This document shows, piece after piece, positions 14,041 through 34,499 of a stretch of 64,000 nt of DNA. The first letter of the stretch is position 1. The number at the start of each line of letters is the position of its first letter. The notes under the pieces are model-generated. The model was not told the origin of the DNA, searched no databases, and saw only the letters and a program-made list of their open reading frames with translations. This DNA comes from Bolinopsis microptera. Its lineage: Eukaryota > Ctenophora > Tentaculata > Lobata > Bolinopsidae. Where the stretch lies: contig NC_087079.1 in the NCBI RefSeq assembly GCF_026151205.1, forward strand, positions 13,540,945 to 13,604,944, read 5' to 3'. The position numbers and the translations under genes are program-made.

Positions 14041-17000
14041 TTTTTTTTTTTTATTAAATACTTTTCAAATTTTACAGAGTACAGCAATAGATGAATATAA
14101 AATAGAATCGTTCAAAATATCGCCCCCATCTGTAAAATATGATGGGCACCCAAACACGGTAAACACATAGTGAACTATGTCCGCAGTAACTTGGACCCAT
14201 TACATCGAATTAATCTAAATCCAAAAATTTATGAAAAACTATTTAATAACAAACAAATCCATGGTGAATAACTGTGGATATATAGTCAAAATTGGTATTT
14301 CAATACGTCAAATTCCAGATACATTAGATACAGGTCTGATATGGTCATTAATGTGTGAGGTGTGCGGGTGAAGTGTGATATGATGTTGAAAGTATAGGAA
14401 TGTAGATAAAAAAAATTAATAAAACAAAAATAATAATAATATGGGGAGCAAAGAGACTAGGCTAGGCTGTTGTTTCACTATCCAATAAACATTTCCATAG
14501 ATGCTTAGTGACCTCAGCTTTGAAAACACTTGTAGACACAATCTGTCTTACCTGTAAAGGGAGTCCATTCCACAGTATATGAGTTCTGTAGAAAAATGAT
14601 TTTGCCAGTGGGCTATTTGAGGTACATAAGGTGTGTGAATTCTGACTTAACTTAGGTAAAATTGATGACACTATAGACAGACTGTCGAGGTGGCAACGTC
14701 TTAGTCGAGAAGTGCCCTGATATAAAGTGAGATAGTGAGGCAGCGATACAGGAATTAAATTGTTCAGAACTTTGTGGAAAAAAATAAGATCATTCAAGTC
14801 AAACTTTTGAGACAAAGGGAGAATGTCGACAAGCTTGCACTTTTTGACATATTGCTCAGGTGGATAACTGCGGCCCTCTTCAGACAGAATCCATTTAATA
14901 GCTCTCTTTTGGAGACTTTCTAATTTATCACTAAGTGATTTATTACAAGGGCGCCAGATTATGGAACAATTTTCGAATTGGCTACGAACCAGGGAGAGGT
15001 AAAGCGCCCGGCGACGTTTCTGATCAATGACAATATGGCCATCTCTTCTGACCATACCAAGTTGTTGGCAGGCCTTAGTATAAATTCTGTCGCACTGACT
15101 ATTCCAACTGAGCTTAGGAGTAACATCGACTCCAAGATCTTTTTCTAACTCTACATACACAAGAGGAGAGCCATCAAGATTATATGCGAATGGAGGAGAT
15201 AAAGATGGTTTTCCTGAAACAATAAGCACTTTACATTTTGCTGGATGGAATCGCATTTTGTTTCTAAGTGCCCAGTCAGAGAGATAGTCTATATCCATTT
15301 GTAAATTGGTATTATCAGAAGATGAATGTATTTTACGCCAGATTTTTGTATCATCGGCATACAAAACAATATCAGTATTATCCGAAAGGCCAAGAGGAAT
15401 ATCATTGATAAACAATACAAAAAGTAAGGGACCAAGGATAGAGCCCTGGGGGACACCAGAATTAACTGAGAGGGTAGATGACATCTCATTACCAATAACC
15501 ACTCTTTGGTAACGGCCTTGAAGGTAATTGGTAAGAAATTTGAGAAGTGTACCATCAATGTTATATAAGGTCTTTAGCTTATGAAGAAGGATATCATGAT
15601 TTACAGAATCAAATGCCTTAGCAAAATCAAAATACACAACATGATTGATAATGTTTTCGTTAAGAGACAATGCCAGGCTATCACAAAAATCAACCATATT
15701 GGTTGTGCATGACTTGTGCTCTAGAAAACCATGCTGCCTGGGATCAAGAAGGGTACTTGTCAAAGAAAGCAGTTTACGTTTAACAATGCGCTCAAAAACT
15801 TTCATGACTAAACAAGTAAGGGATATTGGTCTATAGTTTTCAACCTCACTTTTCTTACCTTTCTTAAATATTGGGACAACATTTGCAAGTTTCCATTCTT
15901 GTGGAATGTAGCCGCTGTTGTAGGATCCACGAAAAATGCATGTTAGAGGGTAAGCTAAACCTACGGAACAATTTTTAAGAATTTTACCGTGTATGCCATC
16001 TGGTCCCTGGGCTTTATTTGAATTAATATTTGAAAGAAGCTTACGAACATCCCGATGATCGAAGTCAATATCAAAATCAACATCATTGACATAGGAGATG
16101 TCAGTGTCATAAAGTGAAGGATCCGAAAACTGGTTATAAAAGAAAGAATTGAAAAGTTCAGCTTGATCTTTGGGATTGAACCGAAGCTGTCCAGAATAAC
16201 TAACACAATTAGGAATACGGCAGGAGTTAGATTTATACTTAACATGTGACCAAAACTTCTTAGTTATAAGCGCTGGATCATCACTATTAAAAAGATTATC
16301 TCTTATTTTGGCTGATGAGAGCCTCTTAAAATCTTTACGGCTAGTAACAAACTTTAACTCATCAGAAATAGAACCAGAAGTTTTAAATTTAGCTCTGAGT
16401 CTATCTTTTTTACGGCATGAAGAAAAAAGTTCACTATCGAACCACGGGGGTTGGAACTCTGATTTAATAATTACTTTAGGAATATGTATATCAACTAAAT
16501 TCATAATGCAGTCTTTAACTAACTTCCAAGACGAATCAGGATCTAGGCATTCTAGGACTTGCCAATTAATCGAGCATAATTCACGATTAATCATGTCCCA
16601 GTTTGCTTTCTTAAAATTATAGATTTTACGTTTAGGAGTTTTCTTACGGGAAAAGGAGCTTTTAATTGAAAAAGTGACAGGAAAATGATCAGATTTGCAC
16701 ACGGAATGAGGATCACAGACATTCAAGTTATCGATTGTGTTATCATAATTACTGAGAAGAATGTCTAATGTATTACCACTTTTATGGGTGGGTGATGTGA
16801 TCAACTGGGAGAGAGAAAGATCACTGAAAGAATCTATGAAGGATTGCTCAATAGGTACGGTACTGGATGAAGATAGCCAGTCTGTATGGGGGAGATTAAA
16901 ATCACCAATAACATAGATTTTAGGGGGATTCTTTTTGGAAACTAGCTTGCGAATATAACTAACTATGACATCATGATTAGGTAACCCAAGAGTTCCTACT

Positions 17001-17130
17001 CTACAACAAGTACAGATTACAATGCTCTCTTTGTTAGGAAAAGAAATTTTAACGGCAAGCATTTCTGCACCTAGGCTAACTGGTAGTCGGGTTGTAGTGG
17101 CGTCGAGATCAGAGATTAGAGACAAACGAT
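14041..17130 (-). mobile_element. CR1-group LINE, 5'-truncated copy
   Basis: Minus-strand element ending in a poly(A) tail seen as T at 14041-14052. One open frame of 887 codons (17125-14462) contains most of the endonuclease (GDFNLPHTDW, KSDHFPV) and a full reverse transcriptase (YFDFAKAFDSVNHD, SGVPQGSILGP, LYADDTKIW). The first roughly 120 residues of the endonuclease, present in the relative at 20736-24290, are missing, as in usual incomplete reverse transcription. The remaining frame is uninterrupted, so the copy is fairly recent. It is clearly related to, but distinct from, the larger element to its right. About 420 bases of 3' UTR precede the tail. Confidence 0.95.
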
Positions 17131-19581: not shown

Positions 19582-20257
19582 AACATCTCGCTGAAAAGAC
19601 CAGCATTAAGTAAGGCCAACGGTATTGTGATGTGATGTCATGTGATGAATTTGTGTGATTTTATTTTGAGTTGAACATATAGGTCTTTTGTATTGGTTTA
19701 TTCATTTTTCGAGGGTGTCTATCCTTTTAGCTAGACAATTACCATTGCTGAAATTATCTGTAGACTGTTCGAAAAAAAATATAAATTAATACTTTCAACA
19801 CTACTATATAACAAATAATTTGAGGTATGTGTCATGTACGCAAAACAAGTAGTGGAATTGTAGTGGAATCGTAGATAAGACAGACCAGATAACGCCTCCA
19901 TACCTGAAACTGAAGATCTCCTTCTTCTCGTCTTCCCAAATATACAAAGGGAGTCCGACCCATAAGTCGGAACCTCTCCGGTTGGTTTAAACTTTTTCGA
20001 TTTTGATCCAGTCTTTGGCCCAACCTCCTTACTACTATCTACATACCTACACAACTTCATGATGGTTGAAACATGCCCAGACCAAAACGACATCAATAAT
20101 GCTAACAATGTTTTTACCCCCCAGAAAAAAGCGAAGACCCCAACGATTGTTGCTGCTGGAATGCTACGACAACTAGACACTCACCTGCTCAAAGCTGTCC
20201 GAAGTTATTTTACAATGGACGCATCTAGTACTGAAAGCGCTGTATCTAGTACTGAAA
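19582..20257. other. non-coding flank of the AlkB-ORF1 LINE
   Basis: Open frames exist on both strands at 19731-20274 but none resembles a known protein and they overlap each other. Just before the LINE tail the word TCTAGTACTGAAA occurs twice (near 20224 and 20245), possibly at the target site. I could not find a matching duplication at the other end. Confidence 0.4.
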
Positions 20258-20735
20258 TTTTTTTTTTTTATTGAAATCTTTCAATTATTATCATCAGAAT
20301 TTATTACAATATCAATGTTGTATAGAATTTCTAAAAATGGACTAGAGAAACCAAAAAATGCCTTGACAAGTGTACAGCGATGATAACAATCAGGGGACAC
20401 CAATACACCCAAATAACTAAACAAAAGGCCTCGAGAGACCTGATGAAAAGTCGAGCAATTACATTGGGCCCCAAGTGCAGAAGGAGAAAAATGGGCAAAT
20501 AATATGAGCTGTGAACTTAGGAGGCATTTCTAGGTTTTTAAGAATAATTGCCACAACCCAAAAATTCTCAATTACAATTGGCTGATTTGTAATATTTCCA
20601 ATGGAATGAAGTTTTAACGATAAAATTTAAATAATTGAATATAAAAGACTAAATCAAAATTGTATCCGAATAAAGCAAAAATGCGTGATGAGTACCTCAA
20701 AAAAAAAATAAAAACAAAAATAATAGAGAAATACA

Positions 20736-23700
20736 CTACCCGTAGTCTGGGGAAAAAGAATTGTCAGGATCTGAACTAGGGTCAATATCTACAGATGCAG
20801 TACAAACATGTTCCTTCCAGATGTGTTTAATAAGTTCTGTTTTAAACACACCTGGTCTGATAATCTCTCGAAGGGAAAGAGGAAGTCGGTTCCAAGTGAG
20901 ATGAGCTCGATAAAAGTAAGATTTAGATATAGCTGAGCCAGGTGAAATTGAAGATATTACTGATAAGTGATCAAGATGTGAGCTTCTCAGTCGGCTTGAC
21001 CCGGAGAAGAAAGTAAGGTACTGAGGCAGAGTGGTGCATGGGTGGTATTGATGCACTAGGGAATGAAAGAACTTGAGATCATGGTAATCAAACCTGTACT
21101 TTAGGGGCAGAATATTTAACTGTTTACAATGGGCATTATAGATTTCCTCTACACTATAGCTTACACCGTAATCATTACGAATCCATTTGAGGGCCCTTTT
21201 CTGCAATCCTTCAAGCCTATTGATAGTGCTACTGGACGCTGGTCGCCAGATGATGGGACAGTGTTCGAATATTGAGCGTACAAGAGTAAGATACAAGACT
21301 CTTCTCTTGTTCAGATCATTAATAAAATGACAATTTCTCTTAAGCATGCCAAATTTTTGGTTAGCTTTACCATATAGAGCATCGGCCTGGCTATTAAAAT
21401 TTAGATTAGACGTCATGATTATGCCTAAATCTTTTTCAGAATCTGTATAATCAAGAAGAGTTTGGCCCATAGAGTAAGTGTAACGTGTAAATGGTAAAAT
21501 GCCATCTAAGGGAGACCACCTCTTAAGTATAGCTAAGACCTTACATTTATCAGGATGAAACTTCATCTTATTAGTTCTTGCCCATGTCATGAGATAATTA
21601 ATATCGCTTTGAAGTATATGGTGGTCTTCCTCTTGGGATATCTCTCTCCACATTTTAGTATCATCAGCGTATAAAAGGATATTAGTGCCCTGAGAAAGTC
21701 CAGAATATATATCATTTATGAAAAGAACAAAAAGTGTTGGTCCGATTATTGACCCTTGAGGAACACCTGACAACACCGGTAGGGTTGCAGAGATAGCCCC
21801 ATTAACAACTACACATTGCTGACGTCCGGAGAGGTAACTTTTCATAAATTGGAGAAGCATTCCATCGATGTTATAATAAAATTTTAGCTTGTATAGTATT
21901 AAGTCGTGGTTAACGGAATCGAATGCTTTGGCAAAATCGAAGTAAACAATATCAGATCTAATGTTCTTGTTAAGAGAGAGGGATAGGCTATCGCAGAATT
22001 CAACCATCTGAGTTGCACAAGATTTGTGAGGCAGGAAACCATGTTGACGAGGATCAATTTTATCATAACATCTACTCAAAAGTTCATCTCGAATAATTCT
22101 TTCCATGACTTTCATAACTAAGCTAGTCAAAGATATTGGCCTATAATTCTTAATGTCATTCTTGGAGCCTTTCTTGTGTACTGGAACAACAATTGCATAT
22201 TTCCAATTTGAAGGTAGGAAGCCGGATACATAGCACTTTGTGAAAAGAATCTCCAGTGCTGGGGCTAACGTAAAGGCACATTTTTTAAGAACTTCACCAT
22301 GGATTTTATCCGGTCCCATAGCTTTTCTAGTATTCAAATTCTTGAGAATATCTACTATCCTAGACGAACTGAAAAGGGTAGATACATAATCAATATCATC
22401 CTGTGTGAGTGTGTTATCAACATGTACATCATAATCACTAGGCGATGAGAACTGTTGATGAAAAAAGGTATTAAATAGGTTTGCTTGGTCAGAATGATCA
22501 CTTTTGTGTACATCTTCTAGGTGAATCTGTTCAGGTATGCGAGTATTCTTAGATGTTGCTTTTACATAGGACCAGAATTTCTTTGTAATTAGATTCGAAT
22601 CATCCTCGTCCTCAAAGCTAGATGCCATCTTGTTGGAGGCAATTTTCTTAAAATCGCTTCTGCTTTTAGAGAACTTAAAGTACTTCTCAGCCTTGCAGGA
22701 AGGGTCCGTGGTTTCTTTATAACTTTTGTGTAGCCTTTCTTTTTCTAGGCAGGCCTGATGAGACTCAGCGTCAAACCAAGGAGGTTGAGCCCTGCCTCCA
22801 ATTTTAATCTTTGGAATATGTTCATTGGTTCTTTGCTCTAAAACCTCCTTAAACTTGTTCCATGATGTTTCCATATTACCAGTGAACTCTGCCTGCCAGT
22901 CAATATCTGCAAGGTCTGCATTAAGTGCATCCCAATTTGCTCTTTTAAAATTTAAAGATTCCCTCTTTTGCGATTTGATGCGCTTCACCTTTGATTTCAA
23001 AGTAAAGGAGACTGCAAAATGGTCGGACTTACATGGAATATTATGTTCTGAAATTTTTATATCGGAGATAAGATGGGGTTTATCGGTTAAGACTAGATCA
23101 AGAATGTTTCCTCCAGTATGTGTTGGACTGGTAATAAGTTGTTCTAAACCAAAGTTACTAAAAGTATCTAGAAAGAGCTGTTCAACCGGATTGCTGCTAC
23201 AGTAATTCTGCCAATCAATACCAGGTAGATTAAGATCCCCTGCAATTACAATACCTCTAACACCTCTACGTTGCCTTGCCTTCCTAACATAATCTTGGAA
23301 GGCGTTATGATTGTTGGCCCCTAAAGTACCTACCCTATAGAAGCTGCAAAGAATAAGTTTACTACCGTCCCTAAATTTGAGTGTTATACCAAGAAGCTCT
23401 GCCGGGCACTTGTACTCTAACTTAGTAGATACAATATCAATGTCCCTACGTATAGCAACTAAAACGCCACCCCCATGCTTCCTAAATCTTCTTGGATTCT
23501 GTGGATCTGGTGGATGGGTTTGTAAGGAACGATCAAGTCTAAAAACTTTGTACGATTCAGGTATGACTTCAGAGTCAATGATAGACTTTTTAAGCCAAGA
23601 TTCATTGATCAGGAGGATGTCCGGTTCATGGCAGTGAATATAGTGATGGAGTTCAAATATTTTAGTGTTGTCAAAAGAAGGATTGTCGGACTGTAGCTGT

Positions 23701-24290
23701 GAGAAGGGAATCAGGCCATGCGTATTAAAAGAAACAACCTTGAGGTATGTAGTAGGCCCAGGGTTAAGTAAGCTTGGGTTGACAATAATTAAAAGGACAG
23801 CGTTCAAGGTATGTATCCAAAGCATGCAGCCAACAGTAATAATATTGAGGTAGTGCATAATTAGCTGAATGTATCCGTAACTGTCTGGCTTGTTTTCAAG
23901 ACCAGTGAAGTTCAGCTTGCCAAGTAAGCCAGGAGAAGCCCCTAATATTTTATAAAGCCACCAGTCTTTTTTGAAGAGAAAAAACATTAATACCGCAGCA
24001 TAGCTTTTGCTATGACTGTGGAAGAGATGAATAAATTCATTGTCTGAGATGCTGTGGAAGGCTGTGACAGTAAAAGGTCTAAAATGACACTCCAAAGCCA
24101 TCCCAATCGTCACACTCATCACACATAATGCAAAATAGAGATACAAATAAATCAAAACAAAAAGTCTTAAAGCATCAAGAACCCCGATGTCGGGCACAAA
24201 GTTACCTGTTATACTAACCTGCTTAGATCTGCGGTTCTTACTGTTGTTATAAATACCAACTCTTAATCTATATTGACTTAGATCTATCAT
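20736..24290 (-). CDS. LINE ORF2: endonuclease and reverse transcriptase
   Basis: A 1184-codon frame. From about residue 183 it is a normal APE-type endonuclease (SFNTHGL, LINESWL, AGDLNLPGIDW, KSDHFAV), followed by a CR1-group reverse transcriptase (YFDFAKAFDSVNHD, SGVPQGSIIGP, LLYADDTKMW) and a C-terminal region shared with the copy at 14462-17125. The N-terminal 180 residues are unusual: hydrophobic stretches at about 40-66, 97-108 and 143-170, ending in LLNPGP (residues 174-179) directly before the endonuclease. Many CR1-like ORF2 proteins are remembered to start with a hydrophobic leader and an NPGP motif like that of 2A peptides; here only NPGP itself fits. The true initiation codon is not certain. 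Confidence 0.93.
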   Translation of the reverse strand: MIDLSQYRLRVGIYNNSKNRRSKQVSITGNFVPDIGVLDALRLFVLIYLYLYFALCVMSVTIGMALECHFRPFTVTAFHSISDNEFIHLFHSHSKSYAAVLMFFLFKKDWWLYKILGASPGLLGKLNFTGLENKPDSYGYIQLIMHYLNIITVGCMLWIHTLNAVLLIIVNPSLLNPGPTTYLKVVSFNTHGLIPFSQLQSDNPSFDNTKIFELHHYIHCHEPDILLINESWLKKSIIDSEVIPESYKVFRLDRSLQTHPPDPQNPRRFRKHGGGVLVAIRRDIDIVSTKLEYKCPAELLGITLKFRDGSKLILCSFYRVGTLGANNHNAFQDYVRKARQRRGVRGIVIAGDLNLPGIDWQNYCSSNPVEQLFLDTFSNFGLEQLITSPTHTGGNILDLVLTDKPHLISDIKISEHNIPCKSDHFAVSFTLKSKVKRIKSQKRESLNFKRANWDALNADLADIDWQAEFTGNMETSWNKFKEVLEQRTNEHIPKIKIGGRAQPPWFDAESHQACLEKERLHKSYKETTDPSCKAEKYFKFSKSRSDFKKIASNKMASSFEDEDDSNLITKKFWSYVKATSKNTRIPEQIHLEDVHKSDHSDQANLFNTFFHQQFSSPSDYDVHVDNTLTQDDIDYVSTLFSSSRIVDILKNLNTRKAMGPDKIHGEVLKKCAFTLAPALEILFTKCYVSGFLPSNWKYAIVVPVHKKGSKNDIKNYRPISLTSLVMKVMERIIRDELLSRCYDKIDPRQHGFLPHKSCATQMVEFCDSLSLSLNKNIRSDIVYFDFAKAFDSVNHDLILYKLKFYYNIDGMLLQFMKSYLSGRQQCVVVNGAISATLPVLSGVPQGSIIGPTLFVLFINDIYSGLSQGTNILLYADDTKMWREISQEEDHHILQSDINYLMTWARTNKMKFHPDKCKVLAILKRWSPLDGILPFTRYTYSMGQTLLDYTDSEKDLGIIMTSNLNFNSQADALYGKANQKFGMLKRNCHFINDLNKRRVLYLTLVRSIFEHCPIIWRPASSSTINRLEGLQKRALKWIRNDYGVSYSVEEIYNAHCKQLNILPLKYRFDYHDLKFFHSLVHQYHPCTTLPQYLTFFSGSSRLRSSHLDHLSVISSISPGSAISKSYFYRAHLTWNRLPLSLREIIRPGVFKTELIKHIWKEHVCTASVDIDPSSDPDNSFSPDYG

Positions 24291-24413
24291 CTAGTAGCAT
24301 TAAGGGAACCCTGTTAACCGACATCCAGCTCCAAAAACTTTTAAAACACAGTCTAATATATCTTAAAATTCGAATTATGAAAACTAGCTTGACCCCTAAA
24401 GCCCTAATAGTAA

Positions 24414-25808
24414 TTACTGAAAAGTGAATGGGTCAAAAAAGTTACTATGAACCGCTCTCAGATAAAGTTTAGCTAGGACACCCATGCCCCTAGCCTCACT
24501 GGGATGGATGTCTCCAGCCTTGAAAAATCTATCATCTCTGATATGAGGTACTCGTGGATCAAAGTATCGTAGAGAAAATGGACGAAAAGCGTCTAACATA
24601 TGGAATCTTCGATATATACATTCATTCTTGATGACACTATTCATTTTCATAACAAAAGAGTTAGTTCTCCAGTCATGCCTGCTTTTGCAAGGCAGAGGTA
24701 AAAGGGACTGAAAATAAACTTTTGAAGAAGTGTAAAGTTCTTTGATTAAAGCACATAGACTCTTAAATTTAAGCTTAATCTTATCTAAAGAGTCTGCATA
24801 TCTAATGTCGTTCGTTCCGACACTAATACATATCTTATCTACAATGACAGACTCATTCTTAGACTTAAAATCTCTAATCTGCTCCATCACTTGATGTATT
24901 CTTGCTCCTCCACTGGCAACAGACACAACATCAACACATTTTCTACCAAGTTTTACAGTGTCCAGCCTGGCAGCATAGCTATCACCAGCGATTAGGCACA
25001 CATGTCTGAATGCTGGAGCTGTGAGGCTACCGTTATCAATATCACTCTTGACGTGACCTGACGGTTGTTCAGCTCCCTTCGTTTGTGCTACATCCGGTAG
25101 AGGTGGCTGAGGACGCTTTGCCATAGCCCGGAAGGATAATGAATATCTCAGCGAAGGTGTCCCAGGTGCGCCTGATTCACCAGGAACGCGATGCTTCATA
25201 ACCTCCTGGGTACCAGGTTTCATAAGCACCAGGCTTCTGTTCTCCATTCTGAAGGATCGGACAACCTTTTTGTCAGCATTGGAGAGAAAGTCAATCGTCC
25301 GGGGTTCACCAATTGATAGATTACAAATGGGCTGATTTGTGTCCATGGTTGTTTCGTCGTCTGCATGCAGACTCGTACCTGCACTTGTTGAAGTGTACTT
25401 GAGTACTAAACAAGAGTCCATTTTGCAATTAAACCTCTCATTAAATGTCTCCATAACTTTACTGAAAGTAGGAAGTGTGGTAATGTCCTTAGCATGATGT
25501 ACTGGCTTACTATCGACATATATGTAAGGCCTGTCGGTTACACTGAGCCATTGTGACTCAGGTCTTCTGGATGAAGCCGACAAGTTGAGGGAATCACACT
25601 CAGCCAACAGGTCGGAACAAACTGCACTGTCAATTATATCTGGAATAAATTCCAAGTGTCCAACCAGGTGCCTAAAATCCATAATCTTCTGAGCAGTTTT
25701 AATGAGGGCTGCTAGGTCCTGTGTTGAAGCGGATGAAAGCGATTCAATAGTATCTTTGAGGTTAAACATTGTATTGTACCAAGATGAGGGAGCTGGATTC
25801 AGGTTCAC
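24414..25808 (-). CDS. LINE ORF1: AlkB-like dioxygenase fused to SGNH esterase
   Basis: A 464-residue protein with two enzyme domains. Residues about 50-229 are an AlkB-type 2-oxoglutarate/Fe(II) dioxygenase: the metal-binding H148-x-D150 in SLHADDE, distal H206 in VMKHRVP, and the closing R221-x5-R227 in RYSLSFR, with typical CNLSIGEPRTIDF and LVLMKPGTQEV strands between. Residues about 268-450 are an SGNH/GDSL hydrolase: GDS (Ser277), a Gly at 300, GTND (Asn333) and DIH (Asp433, His435). All expected catalytic residues of both domains are present. A Pro-rich linker joins them. CR1 elements are known to carry an esterase in ORF1; AlkB domains are known in some plant RNA virus replicases, where they repair alkylated RNA. 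I know of no described LINE with this AlkB-SGNH fusion. A role in repairing or demethylating element RNA is inference. Confidence 0.9.
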   Translation of the reverse strand: MNLNPAPSSWYNTMFNLKDTIESLSSASTQDLAALIKTAQKIMDFRHLVGHLEFIPDIIDSAVCSDLLAECDSLNLSASSRRPESQWLSVTDRPYIYVDSKPVHHAKDITTLPTFSKVMETFNERFNCKMDSCLVLKYTSTSAGTSLHADDETTMDTNQPICNLSIGEPRTIDFLSNADKKVVRSFRMENRSLVLMKPGTQEVMKHRVPGESGAPGTPSLRYSLSFRAMAKRPQPPLPDVAQTKGAEQPSGHVKSDIDNGSLTAPAFRHVCLIAGDSYAARLDTVKLGRKCVDVVSVASGGARIHQVMEQIRDFKSKNESVIVDKICISVGTNDIRYADSLDKIKLKFKSLCALIKELYTSSKVYFQSLLPLPCKSRHDWRTNSFVMKMNSVIKNECIYRRFHMLDAFRPFSLRYFDPRVPHIRDDRFFKAGDIHPSEARGMGVLAKLYLRAVHSNFFDPFTFQ

Positions 25809-26152
25809 TGGATTGCCGTCAAGGTATCAAGAGCAGTCACCACCAGTTGTCAGCGATTAAGTGTAGCTGAGGAAAGAAAGTGAGTTGAATGGTGAAATAA
25901 CAAAATTGAAGACAAGAATTAATGAGAACAGTGTTAGCAGCGACCAGTGGTCATTATGCTAGCAAGATCATCAAAAAACCATCCTCTCAACAAGAAACTT
26001 GCTGAGGATGCAGCAACTGTTATCCTGGACTCATAAAAGAAGAGAGTATTATGGAGGTTGAATAATCGAAACTGATTGAGAAGAAAGTGGTAAAAATAGG
26101 TATAACTAAATTTTTATTTAGTCAATATACAACCTGGTAGTGAAGTTAGGAG

Positions 26153-26175
26153 CCACCCAGCTTTATGCTGGGTGG
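26153..26175 (-). repeat. perfect hairpin in the LINE 5' region
   Basis: Arms CCACCCAGC (26153-26161) and GCTGGGTGG (26167-26175) with a 5-base loop. It lies upstream of ORF1 of the minus-strand LINE, probably in its 5' UTR, and would fold in the RNA. Confidence 0.7.
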
Positions 26176-26425
26176 AAGAGAAGGAGAAACTGGCAGTGAA
26201 CAACTCAAGACACCCATCTGGCTCCCCAGATCCCCATCATACCCGCCGATTCAGCTGCACTTTGCCGCCATGCTAGCGTACATGCCTAAATTATTTGTTA
26301 TATAGTAGTGTTGAAAGTATTATGTCACAGGTATTTTAGAAGCTGCTAAAAAACTCTGTGGAAGGTCTGATTATTTGGATTCTGAAATAACCCCTGACAC
26401 TATTTGCTGCTTTAATGCCAGCGGG

Positions 26426-26513
26426 CAAATGTTATGTACCCTTTTATCTTTTGATGAGAAAACCTACAAATTGTTGCTACCAGCAGATTTTAAGCCTGCT
26501 GCAACGTACCTTT
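26426..26513 (+). repeat. 88-bp direct repeat, left copy
   Basis: Identical by eye to 28970-29057. It is LINE ORF1 sequence present on both sides of the copia-derived insert. Integrase-mediated copia insertion gives about 5 bp of duplication, so another mechanism is needed. Confidence 0.9.
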
Positions 26514-28969: not shown

Positions 28970-29057
28970 CAAATGTTATGTACCCTTTTATCTTTTGATG
29001 AGAAAACCTACAAATTGTTGCTACCAGCAGATTTTAAGCCTGCTGCAACGTACCTTT
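28970..29057 (+). repeat. 88-bp direct repeat, right copy
   Basis: Second copy of the LINE ORF1 segment at 26426-26513; the LINE reading frame continues uninterrupted to its right. Confidence 0.9.
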
Positions 29058-31165
29058 CTCCTCTTGAAAGGGTCAAACTACTCTCTCAGATAACAGACTT
29101 CAGAAACCCTCAAAACAATGGCATCGCTGAACTGGAGTGGATAGAACTGGTCAGACCACAGATGTTAAGTGTCCTTTCTGACCATGACATCACCCATAAC
29201 AATCAGGATTGTGATCGTGATCTAAGACGTAGGTTGTATGGAAAGCAATCCTTTCTTAAGGGACACGGTGCCAGTGAAAAGGTGGCACTATTTAGTTTTT
29301 CCTTCGAAGAACCCCTGGTAAGTTTATCCACCAGCTCCATCCCAAAGGAGAACTACGACTACAAAACTAAACTAACGCCTAGCTTTGTCACTGAAAAACT
29401 AGAACCTGCAAAGGCTCACAGCTCAACACCTAAGCATGAAATGTCAGAGTCCACCCAACACAACCCTACTCAAGTGGTAACAGAAGCATCTCCACAGACT
29501 TCATTGGAAACAAGCAACCTAACAAACTTGACACCAAGCACTACCCCAGAACGACCAAGATACAGAGTGGAATCAGGTGAAAGAGGCACTCTATCAACAT
29601 CATCTAGCTCATTTTCTCCTGAAAGCAGTCTATCTGACATAAATGAGCCTTTGGATTTAGCTGGGGATGCATCTGCATCTCCCATAATAACATTTGACAA
29701 CTATTTTGACTTCAGAATTGCACCTAGAGATAAACAGGGTATCATTGGTACTGGTGGCCCATGTACCATCTGTAACAAACATGTTAGTGCTAAACACATT
29801 CTCTCCTGTTATCTATGCAAATTTTCAGTTCACTACGCCTGTTACAAGGTGAACCAAGTAACACGCCACAGATCAGAAAAGCGGGCACTCAGCGGTACAA
29901 ATTTTGCAGCACTTGGAAGGTCCCAGAACAACAAATGGTTTTGCAATGGCTGCAACTCCATCTCCTTTGATGATATTCTGGAAAAAATCTCTCTACACAC
30001 ACAGAAAAAATTCAGTGATGCTGTTGAGGGAAAAATTAAGCTGGTAAATGATACCTCTTCAAGCTCCCTTCAAGAAGATTTCAATCTCACCCAATATTCA
30101 CTCCCGGACTACCAAGGTATGAAGTCACAGGAATCTGAACAGGATACTCAGAATATGCAACAACTCAAAGACTCCATCACAAGAGAACTAAGAGCTGTGC
30201 TAAAAGAGGAAATAAAAACATTAGTCTCGGCCATCACACTATCCCATAATCCAGTGCAGAGCGAGCCCTATCCAATGTTTGCAAATGCATGTACACTACC
30301 TGCATTATATGCTGAAAAGGCAGCACCACCTCACCCTCATCTCAGCACTAACACCTTCAAAGAAACCCAAGCTGTCAAAGAGTCTACAAAACAACCACCT
30401 GGTGCAGTGGGAACGGACTACTTAGTCGATCCTAAAATGTCTGTTATCATAAAGCAAGTTACAAACAAAAAGGTGGTGTCAAATGATACCTCACTTAAAT
30501 CAGAGTTTAACAAATTGTTTAAGCAGATGAAGATAAAGTACATTAAAAAGACAAGATATGGCAACATCATTCTTCAACTAAACTCTGAGGATGATATCAA
30601 ACAAGTACTGGATGGATGGCAATCCCAATATTTTAAAGATCCCAGCGCAAAAATGGGCACAGAGATATTCAGAATGACAGACCAACATCTCACAAAGCAT
30701 GTAGGCATCATAAGGCATGTCCCCATAAATATTGACATGGTTTCAATCTCTGATGGACTTAAAAAAGCCAATTTGAATAGCACTCGTGTAACTCGGCTGG
30801 GCAAATCATCAAACTCAGTAAAAGTCATCTTTAATTCTCATGAGGATCTTACACAGGCAATAAGCAAGGGATTTGGTCTTGACCATTTATGGCTAGAAGT
30901 TGCTCAATTCAAATTCACTAAAAAACCAATGCAATGTCATGGCTGCAAGAGATTTGGTCACCCTGTTAAATGGTGCCGCAGTAAAGCAGCATGCGGATTT
31001 TGCTCCTCAGAAAGCCACACTGATAAAGAATGCTTGGAGAGAACTAATCCATCAAGATATTGCTGCCGCAACTGCAGAGGAAATCATACGGCTTTCTCAA
31101 ACCTTTGCCCACATTTTATAGAAAAAATGAATCTGATTAAACAAAGTAACCACCATGATAACTAA
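28973..31165 (+). CDS. LINE ORF1: PHD-like finger and zinc knuckles
   Basis: Nucleic-acid-binding ORF1 protein of the I/Jockey-like LINE; 730 codons are open here, but the true N-terminus lies in the left fragment (26331-26513). About residues 260-331 form a PHD-like zinc finger (GPCTICNKHV, CYLCKFSVHYAC, WFCNGC). About residues 540-650 resemble an RRM-like region. Residues 653-712 carry a series of CCHC-type knuckles (CHGCKRFGHPVKWC, CGFCSSESHTDKEC, CRNCRGNHTAFSNLC). It ends four codons into ORF2: the sequence ATGATAACTAA contains the ORF2 start and the ORF1 stop. Confidence 0.88.
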   Translation: MLCTLLSFDEKTYKLLLPADFKPAATYLSPLERVKLLSQITDFRNPQNNGIAELEWIELVRPQMLSVLSDHDITHNNQDCDRDLRRRLYGKQSFLKGHGASEKVALFSFSFEEPLVSLSTSSIPKENYDYKTKLTPSFVTEKLEPAKAHSSTPKHEMSESTQHNPTQVVTEASPQTSLETSNLTNLTPSTTPERPRYRVESGERGTLSTSSSSFSPESSLSDINEPLDLAGDASASPIITFDNYFDFRIAPRDKQGIIGTGGPCTICNKHVSAKHILSCYLCKFSVHYACYKVNQVTRHRSEKRALSGTNFAALGRSQNNKWFCNGCNSISFDDILEKISLHTQKKFSDAVEGKIKLVNDTSSSSLQEDFNLTQYSLPDYQGMKSQESEQDTQNMQQLKDSITRELRAVLKEEIKTLVSAITLSHNPVQSEPYPMFANACTLPALYAEKAAPPHPHLSTNTFKETQAVKESTKQPPGAVGTDYLVDPKMSVIIKQVTNKKVVSNDTSLKSEFNKLFKQMKIKYIKKTRYGNIILQLNSEDDIKQVLDGWQSQYFKDPSAKMGTEIFRMTDQHLTKHVGIIRHVPINIDMVSISDGLKKANLNSTRVTRLGKSSNSVKVIFNSHEDLTQAISKGFGLDHLWLEVAQFKFTKKPMQCHGCKRFGHPVKWCRSKAACGFCSSESHTDKECLERTNPSRYCCRNCRGNHTAFSNLCPHFIEKMNLIKQSNHHDN

Positions 31166-34100
31166 AATCAACGGAAGTCTTCATATCTGTCAAATAAATG
31201 TCAGTGGGCTATCAAACAGGTCTATTACAGCAATTGATAGATTCAACTTTAAGTTCAAAAATGACATTTTGGCTCTACAGGAAACTTTGTTGGATAACTC
31301 CAAACCCCACTTAAATACCTTTCATAATCTCGACACATTTTCGGTGAACAACAGCAGAGGAGTGTCCACCAGTGTTGCCCCAAGACTTGTTCCACAACAA
31401 ATCAGTGAGCTTCAAGACACAACCACTGATGCGCTTTGGGTCACAGTTAGGTACAATTCAACGGTAGTTATGATAGGTAACATATACGTAAACCACTCCC
31501 TAACCTCTCCAAACAATTTGAGCTCAGCACTAACCAACATCACTAAAGCTCTACAATACTGCTCCAAGCTCAATATCAAAGATATAATAATTATCGGTGA
31601 CTTCAACAGCAGACACATCTCCTGGGGAGATATCATCTCAACCGATCGTGGAAGACAGCTGAACTCATTTATTGGTCAGCATAATCTGACATGCATTACT
31701 CCGAATACCAATACATTTGTCTCCCATAATGGTGGGAGTATCATTGACCTTGCTTTGTTGAAGGGCAAAGTATGTAGGCTATACCAATCGTCCAGTATTG
31801 ACAGTGAAAGTGAACTTTTCACAGGTGCTCCTAATAGAGGTCACTTACCAATCATCCACCAATTCTGTCATGCACAAACTGCTCAAATTGCATCTCCTCT
31901 TCTTTACTGGGACCTTGAAAAAACAGACTGGAATGCTTGGCGTGAATCACTAAACAGGTCCCTTCTCCTTGGAATAACTGGTAGGATCAACTCTTACATA
32001 GACCCTCTAAAGCTGTGGCAAGACTTCAAAAACACTTTATCTGCAATTGGTAATCAGTGGATCCCTCTCAAGAAAGCCAGCATCCACTCAAAACCTTTTT
32101 GGAACTCTCTCCTTACAGACCTCTCACGAACTCTTCAAGCTGCGCAGGAAACGATGAAAACCAGCTACACACCGCTTAACGTCTCCCTCCACAAACAAGC
32201 AAAGGAGGAGTTCTCTAATACCTTGATATCCGAAAAAAACAAATGGATTCATCAAAAACTGGAAAATCTCAATGTTGCACAATCTCAAACATTCTGGAAA
32301 AATTATAAGAAGACATTGACCAATAAGTCTAACGAGTACATGGGAAACCTCATGGATGGTGGCATTCTCCACTCTGACAGAACTCAGAAAGAAAACATCC
32401 TGTACAAATCATTCTTCTCTGGTGAACACATGAATGGAGGCAGTTTTGATCGTATTTTCGAACAGGATATCGATAGCTGCTATGACAACATTATATCCAC
32501 CCAGTTCTCTTCTGACCAACTAGACCCAGTAATTAATGATCACTTGAATGGAAAAATAGGCCTAGAGGAAGTTACCTCGGCACTGAAGGCTCAAAATAGC
32601 AGTGCTAAAAGTTTTGACACTGACGATCTTCATCCAAGAATCCTTAAACATCTGCCTGTGTCAGCTCTTCATATCCTAACAAAACTTTTTGATCTTGTCC
32701 TTGACACTGGTATATGGGTCTGGGACGTATCCAATGTCACTTTCATCAAAAAGGATGGGAAGGATAATTACATGAACCCCTCTGCTTACAGACCAATATC
32801 GATATCATCGTATGTTGGAAAGCTTCTAGAAAAGATCTTGGAACGAAGAATAAAGCTCCATTGTGAACTAGAGGGCTTACTCGACGAAGAACAAGAAGGC
32901 TTTAGACCTCAAAGAAATACTGCAAGGTATCTTTATAAATTAATTGCTACTCTAGATGCATGCAAGAGGAAAAAACTCACTACTTTCCTACTATGTATCG
33001 ACTTTAGTAAAGCATTTGATAGTGTATGGGTGAAAGGCCTGGTTTTCAAGCTCAACAAATACCAAATACAAGGAAAAATCTTGCGGATAATCAATAACTT
33101 CCTGTTATGTCGCAAAGTACGGCTAAGGGTTGACAACAGTCTCGGATTCCAACGCTCATGTGGATGGTTTGGGCTTCCCCAAGGCTCTGTCCTTGCACCT
33201 CTGCTATTTATCCTCTACATCTCGGATATGTTATGTAAGGACCAGCTTCCACTGGAATGCAGCTCTAACTCAAGTCTATTCAAATATGCGGACGATGGAA
33301 GCATAGCAGTATCCCACATGGATCCTATATGTGCTCACCGGATAATGCAGCTGATGTGCAAATACCTTCATGTCTGGTGCAGTAAATGGAAACTAATCCC
33401 GAACTGTGATAAAAACAAAACCGAGTGCATAATGATCGCACCAGCATCCTCAACTGCACCTGATGTCACAACCTTAAGTCCGTTAATTATTGGCAGCAGA
33501 CCCATAACCTATACGTATCAATCAACTGTTCTCGGATTAACAATCGACAACAAGCTCACATTCAAGGGTCACGCAAAATTCAAACTCAAGCAATGCTGGT
33601 TTGCCTGGCACAGGATCACCCAAAACTCCACCCGCCACAGAGGTCTGAATACAAGCTCACTCAGAATGCTCTTCAGAACAGTGGTACTCACAAAACTTCT
33701 ATATGCTGCTCCTATATGGCTAAAAGATAACCTCGACACTTTCAAAGACTTTTATGCCAGGGTCCTCTTGAAGATAAGCGGGGCCACTCACCATCCTCCC
33801 AAAGATTTGACCTCTGTTGCGCTTGGGATTCCACCCCTTGAGATATCCTACAAGATGGTCACTATAAAATTTATAATAAAAGCACTTACAAGTGACCCAT
33901 TTATGCAAGGGCTCATCTTGCAGCTAGAGGAGGCAAAGGCCCACCGATACCAGCACCATATTGACGAGATACGTAAGTTTCTAACGTGGAAAACTGGGTC
34001 CAAAGAACTAAACAGAAGCAAAATAGACCTTCTGACTAGTGTCCAGAACGATGTTGTCAGCTACTCAAAAGAAGAAATAATCCGCTTCATGGAGTTTACT

Positions 34101-34499
34101 TGGAATAAACATCTCCTGCTGAACCCAAGAATAAATCAGAGTGAGGGTCAGATACTGGATAACATTGATGAAAGGAGCAAACGATTATTTCCTCGCTACT
34201 CAAGCAGAAACACGGATACTAAGGTTATGTCTCTCCTACATGGCCATGACATCACCTTTGCAGCCTTCCAGGCAAGGGTAGCCAACAACTGCGACCCTCA
34301 GTGTCCAAATTGTAAGGTATTGGACACCAATTATCACAGACTCTTCTACTGTCCACTGTGCAGCTGCTCTTACAGGGAAACCCTGCAGGACCATTCCTTT
34401 GATGACCAACCATCATGGTCTATCTTAAGAGATGATAGTGATAACAGCATCACTGCCTTCCGCTCTCTAGCACAAATTGCCATTGGTGAACTATCATAA
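31155..34499 (+). CDS. LINE ORF2: endonuclease and reverse transcriptase
   Basis: A 1114-codon protein with an N-terminal APE-type endonuclease (ICQINVSGL, LALQETLL, IIGDFNSRHISWGD, GGSIIDLAL) and a reverse transcriptase (CIDFSKAFDSVWVKG, GLPQGSVLAP, FKYADDGSIAV). The C-terminus has a cysteine-histidine cluster (CPNCKVLDTNYHRLFYCPLC). The YADDG box and the zinc tail fit the I/Jockey/Ingi side of the LINE tree better than CR1. The frame is intact over its full length. It overlaps ORF1 by 11 bases, which suggests translation by termination-reinitiation as proposed for other LINEs. Confidence 0.93.
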   Translation: MITKINGSLHICQINVSGLSNRSITAIDRFNFKFKNDILALQETLLDNSKPHLNTFHNLDTFSVNNSRGVSTSVAPRLVPQQISELQDTTTDALWVTVRYNSTVVMIGNIYVNHSLTSPNNLSSALTNITKALQYCSKLNIKDIIIIGDFNSRHISWGDIISTDRGRQLNSFIGQHNLTCITPNTNTFVSHNGGSIIDLALLKGKVCRLYQSSSIDSESELFTGAPNRGHLPIIHQFCHAQTAQIASPLLYWDLEKTDWNAWRESLNRSLLLGITGRINSYIDPLKLWQDFKNTLSAIGNQWIPLKKASIHSKPFWNSLLTDLSRTLQAAQETMKTSYTPLNVSLHKQAKEEFSNTLISEKNKWIHQKLENLNVAQSQTFWKNYKKTLTNKSNEYMGNLMDGGILHSDRTQKENILYKSFFSGEHMNGGSFDRIFEQDIDSCYDNIISTQFSSDQLDPVINDHLNGKIGLEEVTSALKAQNSSAKSFDTDDLHPRILKHLPVSALHILTKLFDLVLDTGIWVWDVSNVTFIKKDGKDNYMNPSAYRPISISSYVGKLLEKILERRIKLHCELEGLLDEEQEGFRPQRNTARYLYKLIATLDACKRKKLTTFLLCIDFSKAFDSVWVKGLVFKLNKYQIQGKILRIINNFLLCRKVRLRVDNSLGFQRSCGWFGLPQGSVLAPLLFILYISDMLCKDQLPLECSSNSSLFKYADDGSIAVSHMDPICAHRIMQLMCKYLHVWCSKWKLIPNCDKNKTECIMIAPASSTAPDVTTLSPLIIGSRPITYTYQSTVLGLTIDNKLTFKGHAKFKLKQCWFAWHRITQNSTRHRGLNTSSLRMLFRTVVLTKLLYAAPIWLKDNLDTFKDFYARVLLKISGATHHPPKDLTSVALGIPPLEISYKMVTIKFIIKALTSDPFMQGLILQLEEAKAHRYQHHIDEIRKFLTWKTGSKELNRSKIDLLTSVQNDVVSYSKEEIIRFMEFTWNKHLLLNPRINQSEGQILDNIDERSKRLFPRYSSRNTDTKVMSLLHGHDITFAAFQARVANNCDPQCPNCKVLDTNYHRLFYCPLCSCSYRETLQDHSFDDQPSWSILRDDSDNSITAFRSLAQIAIGELS

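Follow-up and report, generated by a model that had tools for sequence, protein, structure and literature searches.

In the genome of the ctenophore Bolinopsis microptera we identified a LINE whose first open reading frame (ORF1) consists of an ALKBH2/3-like AlkB dioxygenase, a variable linker and an SGNH domain. ORF1s of this build accompany the element in at least seven families. The AlkB is very likely LINE-encoded, selected and probably active. One copy lies in the window, the whole stretch of 64,000 nucleotides that was analysed, with these features:

20258..26321, minus strand: whole LINE copy of about 6.06 kb, bounded by the 5' leader, whose end is known to a few bases, and by a poly(A) of 12, both read directly
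24414..25808, minus strand: ORF1, a single open frame of 464 codons from GTG
25116..25676, minus strand: AlkB (2OG-Fe(II) dioxygenase) domain, residues 45-231 of ORF1
24438..25010, minus strand: SGNH hydrolase-like domain, residues 267-457 of ORF1 (Pfam E 1.2e-10; profile match to 4c1b, E 1.1e-9)
20736..24290, minus strand: ORF2, 1184 aa, endonuclease and reverse transcriptase (RVT_1 E 1.2e-29, Exo_endo_phos_2 E 3.2e-11)
26289..26317, minus strand: 29-base core of the 5'-terminal leader, common to all seven AlkB-SGNH families

A preliminary description of this DNA had reported an uninterrupted 464-residue frame with H148, D150, H206, R221 and R227 of AlkB, followed by the GDS, GTND and DIH motifs of an SGNH hydrolase, and an intact endonuclease-reverse transcriptase ORF2 on the same strand, 123 bp away. 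All of this was borne out: the frame reads on the minus strand, the residues occupy exactly these positions (GDS at 275-277, GTND at 331-334, DIH at 433-435), and the frame coordinates together with the Pfam domains of ORF2 confirmed the 123-bp gap between two minus-strand frames. The first ATG of ORF1 is codon 14 (25769), leaving 451 residues, and many ORF1 relatives begin at or near this codon. Profile searches recognized both halves above their Pfam cut-offs, namely an AlkB-type dioxygenase at residues 83-227 (2OG-FeII_Oxy_2, E 4.8e-15, score 56.7 bits, cut-off 31.2) and a GDSL/SGNH domain at residues 276-439 (Lipase_GDSL_2, E 1.2e-10, 42.6 bits against 32.9).

As the preliminary description had supposed, the frame is the ORF1 of a LINE and not a host gene. 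The window copy joins an endonuclease-reverse transcriptase ORF2 to a 3'-terminal poly(A) of 12 (20258-20269), dispersed and 5'-truncated copies are present in the genome, and the window copy appears to break the frame of a plus-strand LINE. Direct repeats of at least 8 bp flanking the window copy were not found; among 14 loci they were convincing at two, L035 (25 bp) and L046 (17 bp), in both cases some bases before the leader. An Rfam scan of the window returned nothing at gathering score. In loci L001 to L050, of which L001 is the window's own copy, an ORF2 match lay downstream on the same strand in 49 of 50 (all 20 loci with long flanks and 29 of the 30 with short flanks, the exception being L004). 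Seen from the other side, a listed ORF1 preceded 26 of 47 scored ORF2 matches on the same strand, no more than 3 kb away. The distance between the two was nearly constant per family, at 641-667 and 797 bases, with one match, the second half of a copy on C7, at 2785. A host gene that adjoins a LINE by chance, or an assembly artefact, is extremely improbable in view of the many copies on many contigs, the order ORF1 then ORF2 in nearly all loci and the spacing within families, and this candidate was rejected.

In the genome of 264.65 Mb (232 contigs), ORF1 gave at least 92 matches (91 of 779 candidates scored), two copies on C10 and C5 accounting for two matches each; 85 of the 92 contained no in-frame stop in the matched stretch. 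Three full-length copies, that of the window included, were 99-100% identical. The wider protein set comprised 193 homologues at E <= 1e-3, of which 120 were listed; both Pfam domains were matched (E <= 0.001) in 40 of 40 sequences of alignment A1, made of the window's ORF1 and 39 chosen from these 120. The copies fall into at least seven families with an AlkB-SGNH ORF1, called A (the window's), B1, B2, C, D, E and F, with ORF1 identities between families from 79-80% (B1/B2) down to about 25%. In family F, decayed relatives of 68-74% identity with 13-15 stops (C1:11352262, C1:12409283, C6:6221169 and C9:12020522) exist beside intact copies at 99-100%, and this family has probably been resident in the genome for long. 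Relatives in viral contigs or GTDB genomes were not confirmed by tblastn.

The preliminary description had tied its reading to the AlkB part being common to copies of the same ORF2 family. Among the 21 ORF2 matches without a listed ORF1, eight belonged to the window's own family, seven to a family at 51-52% identity and six to families at 49-50%. Five of the eight own-family matches began late in ORF2, like 5'-truncated copies; the other three (92-100% identity) matched the whole ORF2 query and had no listed ORF1. For the families at 49-50%, other copies do carry ORF1. In the closest other ORF2 family, at 51-52%, no match had a listed ORF1, one of the seven being matched to 929/1004. The 901 bases before one ORF2 of this family (L051, C13:4378350-4379250) encode the end of an SGNH domain in which D-G-L-H has the canonical form; its similarity to the ORF1 profile is weak (E 1.5e-6 in a tiny search). 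No AlkB was detected in these 901 bases, which stop short of the N-terminal part of ORF1. Since the closest ORF2 family thus has an SGNH ORF1 end without detected AlkB, AlkB may be dispensable in this clade.

A further ORF2 in the window belongs to another AlkB-SGNH family:

14462..17125, minus strand: ORF2 of a 5'-truncated family E copy; identity to the ORF2s of L044, L046 and L047 is 99.3% across 887 aa

These three loci carry an AlkB-SGNH ORF1; a remnant ORF1 ahead of the truncated ORF2 was not found within the window. Trees of 15 sequences each grouped the families differently for the two ORF1 halves and ORF2, and a common history of ORF1 and ORF2 is no more than a possibility. The AlkB-half tree joined C, D and F (93/100, not starred) and the SGNH-half tree supported only A with B (90/91, not starred). 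The ORF2 tree joined D and F (100/100), while C took another place, by way of short branches; A and B were filled to just 30-39% there. Long branches were flagged in this analysis.

The AlkB half retains the hallmarks of its family, the iron triad HxD...H (H148, D150, H206) and the RxxxxxR motif for 2-oxoglutarate and substrate (R221, R227). Together with E152 these residues were all present in 43 of the 50 copies at L001-L050, the others being six cut frames and one copy with a gap at R221 (L042). Among the 120 listed homologues, H148, D150 and E152 were each found in 113 of the 113 with a residue there (7 gaps), H206 in 119 of 120, and R221 and R227 in 118 of 120. All five classic residues fell within the 49 of 408 columns that were conserved to at least 97% in 95 homologues of at least 430 residues (hypergeometric p 2e-5, columns treated as independent). 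The structure model of ORF1 had a pLDDT of 86.3, with the AlkB half mainly above 90. A structure prediction had been proposed as a check, and the AlkB half came out as a jelly-roll fold with ALKBH2 and ALKBH3, tied, as best matches, while its best profile match was ALKBH3 (E 1.3e-11). Identity to these repair enzymes was 17-19% in alignments, and unlike them the AlkB described here is part of a mobile element protein. E152 aligned with the Glu following HxDD in ALKBH2/3, which presumably takes part in recognizing m1A/m3C. The earlier argument was that conserved metal and 2-oxoglutarate residues betray a selected activity. These positions are kept across families; the activity as such is a prediction.

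In five sampled proteins of other families, Pfam recognized AlkB above cut-off only in B2; the family E protein gave a weak 2OG match below cut-off, and those of families C, D and F gave none. In C, D, E and F, substrate or activity of AlkB may have shifted even with the residues in place, and the weak or absent Pfam calls in these families may explain how such ORF1s escaped notice. An RNA-binding domain was not recognized in ORF1. A search with the AlkB part alone, aimed at its source, gave just seven proteins with no clearly cellular AlkB among them: P0029 and P0104 were already among the ORF1 homologues, and the other five, short and 51-86% identical, are most likely fragments of the same family.

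Both ORF1 halves are under purifying selection between families B1 and B2. The dN/dS ratio, proposed earlier as a check on the AlkB part, was 0.15-0.16 over residues 14-229 for the pairs L006/L010 and L007/L011, far under that of the linker (0.50-0.68), with 0.18-0.22 for the AlkB core and 0.10-0.18 for SGNH. The pair L021/L012 gave 0.16 for residues 14-229, 0.23-0.24 for the AlkB core, 0.42-0.54 for the linker and 0.11-0.21 for SGNH; since all three pairs set B1 against B2, they are not independent of one another, and dS ranged from 0.44 to 0.95 by part and method. Young pairs were noisy over residues 14-229, with 0.9-1.0 for L006/L021 (13 differences), 0.37-0.52 for L045/L048 and 0.27-0.45 for three family D pairs, and several pairs held too few changes for dN/dS.

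The SGNH half matched the ORF1 esterase of zebrafish ZfL2-1 (4c1b), and the residues S, G, N and H expected of a type IV ORF1 are present: where the position is filled among the 120 listed homologues, S277 was found in 118/119, G301 in 119/119, N333 in 118/118 and H435 in 114/115, and at locus L027 an E replaces G301. The hydrolase motifs named in the preliminary description are therefore in place, but the catalytic acid of the esterase is not kept. D279 of ZfL2-1, the acid of the canonical D-x-x-H, aligned with residue 432, which is mostly N, S, G or K; residue 433 is D in 53, G in 52 and N in 10 of the listed homologues, and family E retains D-W-L-H. In our reading of the alignment the transposon-specific pair H191/S228 of ZfL2-1 is replaced as well, H191 by S329 (conserved to at least 90% in alignment A1) and S228 by Q367 (at least 97% in the 95 long homologues). 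The structure model has helices at residues 17-26 and 29-49, ahead of the esterase part. By its sequence this half is a relative of the esterase known from LINE ORF1s, without the usual catalytic acid. The type IV (esterase) ORF1s of CR1/L2-group LINEs such as ZfL2-1 likewise combine an SGNH domain in ORF1 with a separate endonuclease-reverse transcriptase ORF2, as far as described in the accessible parts of PMC3905857 and PMC4120745; here the N-terminal half is an AlkB dioxygenase, and the acid and the H191/S228 pair have changed.

What would such a protein do for the element? N1-methyladenine and N3-methylcytosine lie on the base-pairing face and halt reverse transcriptases, and AlkB enzymes of the ALKBH2/3 kind remove them. 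Because such lesions stop reverse transcription and the element depends on its running to full length, carrying an eraser in cis would pay. In the mechanism we propose, ORF1p would package the element RNA, the AlkB half would strip lesions of the m1A/m3C type from this RNA (or its cDNA) inside the particle, and the SGNH half, which may retain weak hydrolase activity, would probably tether or localize the particle through lipid or membrane contact, as proposed for ZfL2-1. That the AlkB half demethylates the element's own nucleic acid we consider probable. The explanation as a whole, with the AlkB of ORF1p clearing element RNA or cDNA of methyl lesions that block reverse transcriptase, stands in our estimation at an even chance, and the narrower claim that AlkB specifically repairs m1A/m3C for readthrough falls somewhat short of one. 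Template clean-up is nevertheless our first choice, because m1A/m3C block reverse transcription, the AlkB half is ALKBH2/3-like and E152 is invariant where present.

The main rival holds that AlkB erases not damage but a silencing mark placed by the host, m6A on RNA or adenine or cytosine methylation on DNA. We rate it as unlikely. The invariant E152 suits recognition of the m1A/m3C type, and the best matches were ALKBH3, ALKBH2 and AlkB, with ALKBH5 and FTO absent from the 31 sequence matches; the fold lists, being the best 50 rows, leave room for both. There is a precedent among retrotransposons: RNA binding and in vitro demethylation of m6A have been shown for the AlkB of an orchid Ty3/Gypsy element (PMC9289625, in its accessible part). 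Bacterial AlkB has, by the titles of structure entries, been crystallized with m6A DNA, so that m6A is compatible with the fold. An arms race would also yield what this genome shows, at least 150 other AlkB places, many in sets of equal frame length.

It is also conceivable, if rather improbable, that the AlkB fold is kept as a module for nucleic-acid binding or assembly, with catalysis not selected. Non-hydrolysing SGNH domains do exist, such as Oskar (accessible text of PMC3905857), and the canonical SGNH acid is not kept here. However, a binding module would not need all metal and 2-oxoglutarate positions, and these are kept across families that share about 25-30% of ORF1. Equally improbable is that the AlkB half acts on alkylation of the target site or the cDNA during integration: ALKBH2, a near fold match, repairs DNA, but no sequence feature links AlkB to target DNA over RNA.

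A second common trait of these elements is the leader. Its core, CTTTCAACACTACTATATAACAAATAATT, stands at the 5' end of the element, ahead of ORF1 in the same orientation. It was present at 30 of the 50 loci, exactly matched at 23, with every one of the seven families represented by one copy or more; at L013 the leader is doubled. Allowing one mismatch, the genome holds 1498 occurrences of the core and none of the reversed control. It also opens a LINE with a different ORF1 in the window:

leader starting at 19786 with its core at 19792-19820, plus strand: leader of a plus-strand LINE with a different ORF1

The leader would be a spliced leader that reverse transcription captured, or else a shared promoter. 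In Hydra about 30% of the long reads of transposable elements carry a spliced leader, according to the accessible part of PMC12220107, and Pr77 is a shared promoter of trypanosomatid elements (PMC8190864, likewise in part). The leader as a target site was rejected, the preceding bases differing between copies except at L021 and L024, whose flanks are alike. On C1, for which 100 exact leader places were listed, a leader lay upstream, on the same strand and no more than 4 kb away, of 2 of 6 AlkB-SGNH matches (0.04 expected) and of 2 of 10 other AlkB matches (0.09 expected under random placement; 12 of 2000 runs reached 2). Six divergent leader pairs, 39-56 bases apart, were seen among these 100 places (C1:3731164-3731231, 7307509-7307586, 15606572-15606656, 16284615-16284691, 18035181-18035260 and 23931777-23931850).

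The plus-strand LINE (19786-20257, 26322-26513 and 28970-34499) seems to be split twice, first by the AlkB LINE and then by a Copia-like element, which an exact direct repeat of 88 bases flanks (26426-26513 and 28970-29057). Its ORF1 has a PHD-like finger at 21.2 bits, below the cut-off of 24. As for the ORF2 of the AlkB LINE, residues 1-180 form a hydrophobic N-terminal region ahead of the endonuclease and end in NPSLLNPGP. This resembles the end of 2A peptides without their DxE part, and the motif was found with at most one change in all six ORF2 homologues read that include the region.

AlkB is not confined to these LINEs. A PF13532 search of the genome gave at least 151 matches (150 of 587 candidates scored), every listed one above cut-off, and none of 150 of them overlapped the 92 ORF1 matches (examples: C10:16875843-16876241, plus strand; C3:14441692-14442090, minus strand). 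Many of the open frames around them share a length with others (551 aa in 15 cases, 593 aa in 10, 611 aa in 9, 646 and 676 aa in five each), and for six of the places the frame measures 2225-3388 aa. The equal-length sets look like other multi-copy elements; some single places may be host AlkB genes. Given at least seven AlkB-SGNH LINE families, and supposing that the 150 or more further AlkB places, some of them behind the same 5' leader, belong mostly to other element families, we tentatively propose that AlkB demethylases could be a recurrent weapon of mobile elements that counters base methylation of their RNA or DNA. In the literature searched, we found no description of base methylation of element RNA or DNA as a layer of damage or defence against LINEs.

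AlkB in a retrotransposon as such is already known. Phalaenopsis orchid Ty3/Gypsy elements encode one, but, going by the accessible part of PMC9289625, those are LTR elements of a plant host with an m6A-type AlkB in a separate extra ORF, whereas here a LINE has an ALKBH2/3-like AlkB fused to SGNH in ORF1. AlkB domains of plant RNA viruses, cited in the same part of that paper, likewise sit on an element with an RNA genome, which they are proposed to repair; there they lie within viral proteins and no reverse transcription is involved. A survey of 448 Jockey-superfamily elements (PMC4120745) lists ORF1s with RRM, CCHC, PHD, esterase, coiled coil, CTD and zinc finger; its accessible text reports no AlkB type and does not contain the word. 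The same holds for the word AlkB in the accessible text of PMC5408684, where GDSL esterases are common to several retroelement types. The preliminary description knew of no AlkB-SGNH LINE, and among the matches listed from open-licence PMC we found no earlier description of such an ORF1, though Repbase or subscription papers may hold one; the novelty does not extend to retrotransposon AlkB, in view of the orchid elements.

A natural AlkB that is maybe tuned to aid a reverse transcriptase could be of use in sequencing modified RNA. To our knowledge, little is understood of what LINE ORF1s do, and few of them contain an enzyme. That a protein which presumably travels with the template RNA has a conserved AlkB raises the question of whether methyl lesions or marks limit retrotransposition and whether the element can remove them. 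All in all, the complete-looking AlkB of this ORF1 suggests elements that free their own RNA of damage or marks prior to its reverse transcription into the genome.
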